Positions 1 through 2,913 of a DNA stretch of 64,000 nt are shown piece by piece. Position 1 is the first letter of the stretch. Each line of letters begins with the position of its first letter. Origin of the DNA: Nitrospirota bacterium (GTDB taxonomy: Bacteria; Nitrospirota; Nitrospiria; Nitrospirales; Nitrospiraceae); the NCBI GenBank assembly GCA_030684575.1, contig JAUXVD010000008.1, positions 1-64,000 of the forward strand, read 5' to 3'. The notes under the pieces were generated by a model. It saw only the letters and a program-made list of their open reading frames with translations, was not told the DNA's origin and did no database searches. A program made the position numbers and the translations under genes.

Positions 1-1278
1 TATAATTGGCAACTGGGACGGAAGATGCTGTATCCCTACGAGGAGCGGCATCCCAAGTGGCAGTTTGCCTTTGTGTTCAACATCAACCGGTGCTTGGCCT
101 GTCAGACCTGTTCGATGGCAGACAAGTCCACCTGGCTCTTCTCGAAGGGGCAGGAATACATGTGGTGGAACAACGTGGAAACCAAGCCGTACGGCGGGTA
201 CCCCCAGTTCTACGATGTGAAGATCACCCAGCTCATCGAGCAGGTGAATCCGGGCGGCCAGGTGTGGAACGTCCGGGTCGGACGGAAGCACCATGCGCCG
301 TACGGCGTGTTCGAAGGGATGACCATTTTCGACGCGGGCGCCAAAGTGGGCCAGGCGGCGATCGGGTACATTCCGACGGACCAAGAATGGCGGTTCGTGA
401 ACATCTATGAAGACACGGCGACCTCGATGCGCGCCCTCGTGGAAGGCATCGACAAAACCGGGTTCTCACGGGACGAACCGTGGAAGATGACGGGCAGCAG
501 TCTGCCGGAGCATGAAACGTTCTTTTTCTATCTCCAGCGGATTTGCAACCACTGCACGTATCCGGGCTGCTTGGCCGCCTGCCCGCGGAAGGCGATCTAC
601 AAGCGACCCGAAGACGGGATCGTGTTGATCGACCAGAACCGGTGCCGTGGGTACAAGAAGTGCGTGGAGCAGTGCCCCTTTAAGAAGCCGATGTATCGGG
701 GCACCACACGCGTGTCTGAAAAGTGCATCGCGTGTTATCCGCGCATCGAAGGGAAAGACCCGTTGACGGGCGGCGAGCCGATGGAAACGCGGTGTATGGC
801 CGCCTGCGTCGGCAAGATCCGGATGCAGAGCCTGATGCGCATCGGCGACGACGGCCTGTGGGCGGAAGACCGCTGGCACCCGCTCTACTACGCGATTCGC
901 GTGGAGCAGGTGGCGCTGCCGCTGTACCCACAGTGGGGCACCGAGCCCAACGGGTTCTACATCCCGCCGCGGCACAGCCCTCGTGGCTATGCGCGTCAGA
1001 TGTTTGGCCCGGGCGTCGACAACGCCATCGAGAAGTATCTCGTGCCCAGCCGTGAGCTGTTGGCGGTCCTCCAGTTGTGGAGAGCCAGCCAGCAGATCAT
1101 CTTCCGGTACGATGTCATTCCGGGTCCGAAAGTGTTTGAAACCCAGATCCACGGGAAGCGGTTCGAGATGTACAACGATACCGTGTTGGGCTTCAACAAG
1201 TCGGGCAAGGAAGTGGCGCGTATTCAGGTCGAAGAGCCGATCTACATTCGGCCGGCCGAGCGCGTCACCTGGTTGTAA
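1..1278 (+). CDS. nxrB: Nitrite oxidoreductase beta subunit NxrB (5' end outside window)
   Basis: Iron-sulfur electron-transfer subunit of the nitrite oxidoreductase, which passes electrons from the molybdenum subunit NxrA toward the membrane. The reading frame is open from base 1 (Y-N-W-Q-L-G-R-K before the first in-window ATG at 25), so about four codons are missing; with them the length is about 429 residues, the usual Nitrospira NxrB length. Four cysteine groups that ligate three [4Fe-4S] and one [3Fe-4S]-type cluster in this family are visible: RCLACQTC (near base 88), CNHCTYPGCLAACP (near 544), CRGYKKCVEQCP (near 643) and CIACYP with CMAAC (724-810). No signal peptide is visible, as expected for a subunit exported by piggyback on its partner. 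nxrA would be expected just upstream, outside the window. Identification is very secure from sequence memory of the family. Confidence 0.97.
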   Translation, partial: YNWQLGRKMLYPYEERHPKWQFAFVFNINRCLACQTCSMADKSTWLFSKGQEYMWWNNVETKPYGGYPQFYDVKITQLIEQVNPGGQVWNVRVGRKHHAPYGVFEGMTIFDAGAKVGQAAIGYIPTDQEWRFVNIYEDTATSMRALVEGIDKTGFSRDEPWKMTGSSLPEHETFFFYLQRICNHCTYPGCLAACPRKAIYKRPEDGIVLIDQNRCRGYKKCVEQCPFKKPMYRGTTRVSEKCIACYPRIEGKDPLTGGEPMETRCMAACVGKIRMQSLMRIGDDGLWAEDRWHPLYYAIRVEQVALPLYPQWGTEPNGFYIPPRHSPRGYARQMFGPGVDNAIEKYLVPSRELLAVLQLWRASQQIIFRYDVIPGPKVFETQIHGKRFEMYNDTVLGFNKSGKEVARIQVEEPIYIRPAERVTWL

Positions 1279-1294
1279 GATCAATCGGTGCAGC

Positions 1295-1321
1295 GTGGGA
1301 GGGGGGAGTTCCCCCTCCCAC
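1295..1321 (+). terminator. GC-rich hairpin after nxrB
   Basis: An 11-bp perfect stem (GTGGGAGGGGG with CCCCCTCCCAC) closes a 5-base loop 17 bases after the nxrB stop. No U-tract follows, so it may act as an mRNA-stabilising 3' structure or weak terminator rather than a classic intrinsic terminator. Confidence 0.6.
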
Positions 1322-1348
1322 GAGAGAGAAGAGACTGTCGGCGGCACC

Positions 1349-2011
1349 ATGAACATGGATGTGAAACGTAAAATAACGGCGAGCCTCTCCGTGGTGATTC
1401 CGCTGTTGTGTATCCTGGCGATTCAGGCGAGCTGCCTAAGCTGGTGGCAGGCGATGCAAGATGATCGTGAAACATACACGCAGGTTAAAGAAGAACTGCT
1501 CCGGCTCGAGCGTCTCGTGCCGGCCGTGGATAACGGGTTTCGAGGCTATGTCCTGATGAAGGAATCGATGTTTTTAGATCCCATGGTTGCGGCTGAAGGG
1601 AAAATACCGAGGCTGTTGGATCGCCTGGACAGTATGACGGACCCCTGGCCAGATCTTCAGAGTCGTATCCGGGTGCTATCCGGACGGGTGAATGAGCTAC
1701 TGCAGGTCAAGCGCCGGCTCACGAAGGAGTTTGCTCAGGGGAATGAAGCGGAGGTGCTCTCCTACATCAGGGGAAAGGAAGGGGTGGTATTAGCCAATAC
1801 CATCGCCCTCGCGTTCGAAGATCTGGCCAACAGGGTGGATCAGCGTGAACGTGCACAGATGCGGGATCGGGCCCAAGCGAAAACGTGGACCCATGTGATG
1901 TTCGTCCTCACGACGCTCGGGACGCTCGGCTTAGGGATGGGCATGGGCCGGATCGTGAGGATCTCAAACCAGGCGACCTTCGTCTCCGGCGTCAGTGTCT
2001 ACGAGAAATAA
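1349..2011 (+). CDS. Membrane-anchored CHASE3-domain protein without output domain
   Basis: A 220-residue protein with an N-terminal transmembrane helix (about residues 9-31), an extracytoplasmic helical region (about 33-180) and a second transmembrane helix (about 184-205), then only some 15 cytoplasmic residues. The motif DNGFRGYVLM followed by an acidic helical stretch is typical of CHASE3 sensory domains, which normally precede histidine kinase, cyclase or chemoreceptor modules. Here no kinase, HAMP or GGDEF part follows; the frame ends with a clean stop. It lies 70 bases after nxrB on the same strand, past a hairpin. The start ATG at 1349 is chosen because it begins the hydrophobic leader; ATG 1355 is an alternative. 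The function is not known; it may sense a periplasmic signal and work through a partner. Confidence 0.75.
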   Translation: MNMDVKRKITASLSVVIPLLCILAIQASCLSWWQAMQDDRETYTQVKEELLRLERLVPAVDNGFRGYVLMKESMFLDPMVAAEGKIPRLLDRLDSMTDPWPDLQSRIRVLSGRVNELLQVKRRLTKEFAQGNEAEVLSYIRGKEGVVLANTIALAFEDLANRVDQRERAQMRDRAQAKTWTHVMFVLTTLGTLGLGMGMGRIVRISNQATFVSGVSVYEK

Positions 2012-2067: not shown

Positions 2068-2913
2068 TCACGGCTTTCGTGGTCTGTCCTTCAGGAGGGA
2101 TGAGGCCAGGCCGGCAGCTTCCTTGACGAGGATGCCCATCTTCGAATGTGAAGGCTCAAGGTCCACTGGCCAGCCATAATGGCGCAGGCGCTCGCTGGCG
2201 GTCGGCCCGATGGATGCCACCATCATTTTTTTGCAGGCCTCTTTGAACTGCGCTGTGGTGCCTTCCTGTTCGAGTAACTGCATGACATGATCGATCTGCG
2301 CGGCGTTGGTGATCAACATCACCTGAACGGTGCCTGCGATGATCTCGCCAAGTACCTGCTTCAACGGGCCTGTGTCTTCTGGCAGCGCCCAACGGTAGAT
2401 AGGCACGGGAAAGACTTCTGCGCCGCGTTGTCTCAGGGCTTCCAAGAGTTCAGGATTGGGTATGCCATATTCTTGCACGGCGACACGAAGGCCTTTGACT
2501 GGACGGTACTCGTCGAGCGTGGAGACCACCTCGATCCATGTATTCGGTTCCGGCACGGTGAGAGCCGGCGTAAGGCCCAGGGTCTTGAGGGCCGCGACCG
2601 ACTTGGGGCCACGAGCGACGAGGGCCGTGTGCGTGAGCCCCGCGATGATTGAGGCCATGGGATGGCACGAACGGAGAATGTCGAAGAGGGTTGTGGTGCC
2701 GATGCCCGTCATCAGGATGAGGATATCGACCGATCCATCGATCAATATTGCGCCGAACCGCAATGCCGCGAGGTTGTCCTGGATGGGAATTTCGTGGAGG
2801 GCAGGAGCCACGCGTGCATGCCCGCCATGATGCTCGATCAGCCGGGTCATCTCCCTGGCCATACGGCTTTCGAATGCTGCGACCGTCAGGCCAGAGAATC
2901 CCTGTCCGCTCAT
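2068..2913 (-). CDS. hemD: Uroporphyrinogen-III synthase family protein (HemD-like)
   Basis: A 281-residue protein with the two-lobed HemD pattern: an N-terminal lobe beginning GLTVAAFESRMAREM, the connecting segment around TGIGTTTLFDIL, and a second lobe with the VQEYGIPNPELLEAL and ITNAAQIDHVMQLL segments, ending with an IGPTASERLRHYG motif characteristic of the family. HemD closes hydroxymethylbilane to uroporphyrinogen III in tetrapyrrole synthesis. It is not next to hemC or other heme genes here; it follows the SUMF1-like gene by 8 bases on the same strand. Several Nitrospira HemD-like proteins are fused or partnered with other domains; this one stands alone. Enzymatic identity is likely but divergent members of this fold exist, so paralogous function cannot be excluded. 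Confidence 0.8.
   Translation of the reverse strand: MSGQGFSGLTVAAFESRMAREMTRLIEHHGGHARVAPALHEIPIQDNLAALRFGAILIDGSVDILILMTGIGTTTLFDILRSCHPMASIIAGLTHTALVARGPKSVAALKTLGLTPALTVPEPNTWIEVVSTLDEYRPVKGLRVAVQEYGIPNPELLEALRQRGAEVFPVPIYRWALPEDTGPLKQVLGEIIAGTVQVMLITNAAQIDHVMQLLEQEGTTAQFKEACKKMMVASIGPTASERLRHYGWPVDLEPSHSKMGILVKEAAGLASSLLKDRPRKP

Follow-up and report, generated by a model that had tools for sequence, protein, structure and literature searches.

Proteins with a CHASE3 domain (PF05227) carry it between two hydrophobic helices and are usually completed by a HAMP, GAF, kinase, cyclase or other output domain. Helix-bundle receptors are also found among the nitrate/nitrite sensors, where NarQ is a kinase and where sensors of the NarX/NarQ type have a conserved nitrate-binding arginine in the sensor bundle, while anti-activators of the NifL type are composed of PAS and GHKL-like domains. 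Directly behind nxrB of a Nitrospirota bacterium we have identified a protein that shares with the CHASE3 proteins both the profile match and the seat between two hydrophobic helices, yet has none of the output domains listed above. The window analysed here, a stretch of 64,000 nucleotides, is the start of contig C8 in a 3.79-Mb genome of 23 contigs; since the contig begins at the nxrB start, nxrA and the upstream regulator of this copy lie outside the view. The features of the locus are as follows:

1..1278, + strand: nxrB, encoding the nitrite oxidoreductase (NXR) beta subunit; the frame is already open at the contig edge, with its first ATG at 25
about 1293..1322, + strand: GC-rich stem-loop in the gap that separates nxrB from the receptor gene; no T-run follows (folding and terminator scan)
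1349..2011, + strand: stand-alone CHASE3 receptor gene, ATG start, TAA stop, 220 aa
1373..1429, + strand: first hydrophobic helix, residues 9-27 (hydropathy; helix 3-70 in the model)
1478..1846, + strand: CHASE3 domain, residues 44-166, predicted periplasmic four-helix bundle (Pfam, predicted model, fold match)
1901..1957, + strand: second hydrophobic helix, residues 185-203 (hydropathy)
1958..2008, + strand: predicted cytoplasmic tail of 17 residues, unconserved across the family (hydropathy, alignment)

The window nxrB encodes 417 aa counted from position 25, with Fer4 Pfam matches and 95-100% identity to full-length NxrB of related genomes, and its end is separated from the receptor gene by 70 nt. 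A sequence-only reading of the window had described two membrane helices around a CHASE3-like domain, a stop after about 15 cytoplasmic residues, the lack of an output domain, the position behind nxrB and a hairpin at 1295-1321, and this description stands. The CHASE3 profile matches residues 44-166 at E 5e-12, with 46.3 bits against a gathering cut-off of 28, and is the sole Pfam match of the protein over its cut-off, which places it neither with the NifL-type anti-activators nor, as a cytoplasmic output domain is missing, with the CHASE3 sensor kinases and cyclases. The predicted model, built on 16 sequences (mean pLDDT 83, pTM 0.65, mostly 88-95 in the CHASE3 part), has two long helices running through membrane and bundle, with the helical bundle between them. 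Its best fold match is the sensor domain of the kinase HK9 of Rhodopseudomonas palustris (3va9; Z 18.1, 127 residues aligned, rmsd 1.8, next rows at 16.4), at 14% identity. NarQ, also a helix-bundle receptor (5jeq and 5iji), aligns over 190 and 192 residues with Z of 13.6 and 12.4, but at 7% identity and at a Z level common among helical bundles, so that the likeness is one of fold overlap alone. By sequence, the only solved relative was a lemA chain at E 0.03, taken as a chance match.

A homologue search at E <= 1e-12, a cut-off at which more diverged members may be missed, covered 175 genomes of the taxonomic family and gave matches in 55 of them. By open-frame length the matches fall into two sets, one of 695-1125 aa and one of <= 430 aa; the 38 frames of the shorter set, the window protein included, are stand-alone proteins found in 32 of the 175 genomes and in seven genera, with Nitrospira moscoviensis NSP M-1 (NZ_CP011801.1) and Nitrospira defluvii (FP929003.1) among the carriers. 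With start codons picked by hand, family lengths are 212-232 aa. Every one of the 38 aligned members matches CHASE3 at E <= 0.01 and has hydropathy peaks on both sides of the domain, and none has an output domain, only 5-36 aa (median 16) following the second helix. This tail is unconserved across lineages. When 395 genomes of the phylum were searched with a profile, the places at E <= 1e-25 were bimodal: short frames scored >= 217 bits and all fell within this family, while frames of 647-726 aa (kinases) scored <= 165 bits.

The position behind nxrB, which the sequence-only reading had noted in a single locus, proved to be conserved: 36 of the 38 members, among them that of the window, directly follow nxrB in the same orientation or, at contig edges, follow what is visible of its tail, with gaps of 61-266 nt (median 158) in the 35 cases measured. 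For L096 the contig is cut 64 bp before the receptor gene, and L116 (3836-4516, G039), which has a long branch in the tree, is the sole clade member away from nxrB. In L107 (10507-11747, G070) the nxrB before the receptor is interrupted by frame changes and a TGA. In L124 (11674-11811, G063) just 46 nxrB codons precede the receptor in a single-contig assembly where a full nxrB was not found genome-wide; this shortfall is probably an assembly fault. The reverse association does not hold, as receptor-free nxrB copies are common: N. moscoviensis (G086) has four among its five, and in G084 both copies lack the receptor. Profile searches for a diverged receptor found none in eleven nxrB loci from ten genomes that belong to the genus of the window, and none in seven loci of receptor-free genomes with a NifA-like regulator gene; in one of these seven (G094) the contig ends ~300 bp before the gene and thus short of the site where a receptor would lie. 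In the open-access papers searched, no description of a stand-alone CHASE3 protein behind nxrB was found. The window protein groups with the other orphans in the tree described below and lies directly behind nxrB, and thus belongs to the nxrB-trailing stand-alone CHASE3 clade defined here. We regard the anatomy and the family of the receptor, as read from sequence and predicted structure, as practically certain.

In a midpoint-rooted tree of the 38 orphans with 36 CHASE3 kinase sensors, for which the program gave a long-branch warning (L116, L113 and some kinases), the orphans form one side of a branch with support of 94/96. Their neighbours, under the same rooting, are 21 kinases of about 690-790 aa (95/93), several of which sit upstream of nxrA, and the 15 other CHASE3 kinases fall outside both groups (100/99). 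According to this tree the stand-alone receptor is of single origin and sister to the sensor half of histidine kinases. Orphans and sister kinases have 18 columns in common at >= 85%, including F64, R65, G66, Y67, P78, K121, Y139 and G145; R65 and Y67 are invariant in the other kinases too, and so mark CHASE3 generally. By a simple Nei-Gojobori count over the 84 of 703 pairs with dS of 0.1-1.3, the median dN/dS was 0.153, indicating purifying selection, with 0.111 in CHASE3, 0.185 in the second helix and 0.331 in the tail. Across 37 rows (L116 left out), all positions conserved at >= 90% are at residues 33-158, on the predicted periplasmic side, and none is in either membrane helix or in the tail.

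These results bear on the suggestion, also made in the sequence-only reading, that the receptor may be the remnant of a kinase. The receptor and the sensor half of a kinase family are homologous, and the genome of the window keeps such a kinase elsewhere, as a product of decay could be expected to show. Against this, the length and stop position are similar in seven genera, the dN/dS is low and the family is one clade. Moreover, the gene that follows in the window (2068-2913, of uroporphyrinogen-III synthase type) is on the opposite strand, so that no kinase or kinase fragment lies behind the receptor, and no clade member has a kinase in its frame. A decaying remnant or a frameshifted kinase was rejected as extremely improbable; of the earlier interpretation the orphan receptor behind nxrB is retained, its other suggestion of signalling via a separate partner may apply, and the remnant is dropped. 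As judged from this conservation, the stand-alone receptor is a conserved, working protein and not a broken kinase, and it shows the conversion of a kinase sensor domain into a lasting stand-alone protein.

The explanation that we tentatively prefer, at somewhat less than even probability, is that nxrB is accompanied by a dedicated CHASE3 receptor, a stand-alone protein that works via a partner, most likely a CHASE3 histidine kinase. Transcription running on past the hairpin would yield the receptor along with NXR. The receptor would detect a periplasmic condition such as nitrite, nitrate or NXR itself and, having no signalling part of its own, would pair within the membrane with a different CHASE3 protein, on which it would act as a modulating or decoy subunit. 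The amount of receptor would follow the transcription of nxrAB, so that such pairing could give feedback on nxrAB expression. The near-absent and unconserved cytoplasmic tail, as short as 5 aa, makes contact in the membrane or periplasm the likeliest, and by descent a CHASE3 kinase would be the most natural partner. The pairing itself is possible but doubtful, at odds no better than those of the explanation as a whole. In 21 of the 21 orphan-bearing genomes checked (of 32), two or more other CHASE3-containing frames of >= 480 aa are present as candidate kinases.

The nxr neighbourhoods give further information about possible partners. The genome of the window has at least three nxr copies, with nxrB 3' ends at the contig ends of C8, C20 and C21, and nxrA is on contig C2, whose start overlaps with C9 at either end and with the beginning of C21; three upstream and three downstream flanks meet in collapsed repeats, so that more than one nxrA copy could be joined to the C8 nxrB. 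The receptor is found on the C8 copy only and is missing from the 12-kb flanks of the other two nxrB copies. At the right end of C9 (L136, 8134-11714) a CHASE3-HAMP-GAF-HATPase histidine kinase and an NtrC-type sigma-54 regulator are located directly upstream of one nxrA. This kinase, with relatives at E <= 1e-100 in 32 of the 175 genomes, resembles the receptor in its sister sensor domain and nxr neighbourhood, but it has retained an output part and is located upstream of nxrA, whereas the orphan stands behind nxrB. Among the 16 orphan loci whose nxrA upstream side is visible, none has the sister kinase beside nxrA, and the five fetched nxr loci with the sister kinase upstream (L140-L143, L152) have no receptor downstream; the receptor-free loci L140-L155 were selected partly for carrying the kinase and are no random sample. 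At E <= 1e-100 none of the g14 genomes has the sister kinase type, and neither do G082, G085, G122 and G123, all of them receptor carriers. The sister kinase as one universal partner was therefore rejected, and its absence from many carriers keeps two rivals of kinase pairing alive. In the ten g14 and g9 genomes of the 21 searched, another CHASE3 kinase with a regulator is located either close to the NifA-like gene or no more than ~14 kb from the receptor; it scores 63-72 bits, like a general CHASE3 kinase and unlike the sister type.

NifL and the membrane proteins of the Psp system restrain their activators. The receptor could similarly control a NifA-like (GAF, AAA+, Fis) sigma-54 activator directly, as a kinase-free membrane sensor. 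In fact, the regulator that adjoins the receptor is usually NifA-like and not a kinase pair, which argues against kinase pairing. A NifA-like gene is present in 12 of the 16 orphan loci with a visible upstream side, either directly after the receptor (g4, g15 and g16) or upstream of nxrA (g14), and in N. moscoviensis (L104) the receptor lies between nxrB and the NifA-like gene on the same strand. The main text of PMC6606698 ranks this adjoining gene, NITMOv2_4531, 14th in the N. moscoviensis transcriptome and calls it upstream of nxrAB, contrary to its strand, by which it is downstream. Several observations speak against such control: 1- three of the 16 loci have an NtrC-type regulator alone and one has neither, 2- at E <= 1e-140 a NifA-like match is missing from both the window genome (G000) and G151, 3- the tail has just 5-12 residues in the N. 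moscoviensis group (L100-L106), and 4- in G154 a NifA-like gene is found behind nxrB without a receptor. We consider direct control of the activator unlikely, and the NifA-like regulator as an obligatory partner was rejected on the absence from G000 and G151 and the receptor-free arrangement of G154. In the latter genome (L180, 1-1788) the NifA-like regulator follows nxrB directly, with no receptor between.

Whatever the regulators, nxrB is the only constant neighbour of the receptor. This agrees with the second rival, in which the receptor is a partner of NXR that docks, assembles or stabilises periplasmic NXR, with the CHASE3 bundle as binding surface. The conserved part of the receptor is on the predicted periplasmic side, and NxrA of the same genome starts with SRRQFLK, a twin-arginine-like stretch that would suit a periplasmic location of NXR. 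The main text of PMC6606698 notes, moreover, that NXR has been reported to be membrane-associated and that the gamma subunit with the highest expression lacks a membrane helix. Yet the many nxrB copies without a receptor speak against this role, and the closest kin of the receptor are kinase sensors; we give it a low probability. The two ideas could perhaps be joined in an NXR-dedicated membrane subunit derived from a kinase sensor, whose bundle would dock periplasmic NXR and report NXR load to the nxr regulators in one assembly, which we hold to be quite unlikely. The main text of PMC6606698 treats both the differential regulation of near-identical nxrAB copies and the membrane attachment of NXR in Nitrospira as unsettled, and the receptor gene would offer one gene for testing both.

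The preferred reading of a receptor working through a CHASE3 partner includes its joint production with NXR. The 70-nt gap folds at -37.4 kcal/mol (z -4.5 against 200 shuffles), the hairpin has no following T-run, and a scan of 1100-2200 revealed neither terminator-like nor sigma-70-like sites. Behind nxrB, every row reported has a stem of 8-23 pairs. At least five T in the nine bases after the stem are seen in 1 of 35 nxrB copies with a receptor and in 10 of 30 without (Fisher p 0.0017, or 0.065 at four or more T, relatedness being ignored); one further L104 nxrB was dropped from both sides, and L096, L116 and L125 gave no row. In the genome of the window, the T count after the stem is 0 for the window copy, 4 for the C20 copy and 6 for the C21 copy. 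With the caveat of relatedness, this pattern would fit read-through from nxrB into the receptor. Strong stem-loops also follow the scanned nxrB copies at the high ends of L129 and L130, a T-run being the commoner without a receptor.

In N. moscoviensis, expression among the nxrB copies is highest for the fused nxrB_4/5 (NITMOv2_4533/4537) according to the main text of PMC6606698, so the receptor of this organism follows the nxrB copy reported as most transcribed. Being located between this nxrB and NITMOv2_4531 on the same strand, the orphan should be NITMOv2_4532, a tag that is absent from the main text of that paper. Converted from the coordinates of L104 and L161, its gene occupies 4273128-4273766 of NZ_CP011801.1 on the complement, stop codon excluded. 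The high expression of NITMOv2_4531, which lies beyond the receptor, indirectly suggests read-through past the hairpin.

Away from nxr, a second CHASE3 membrane protein was observed that is likewise stand-alone and short-tailed (L209-L218, for example L209 3836-4579). It scores 20-35 bits with the profile of the nxrB-trailing clade and is present in all ten g14 and g9 genomes of the 21 searched.
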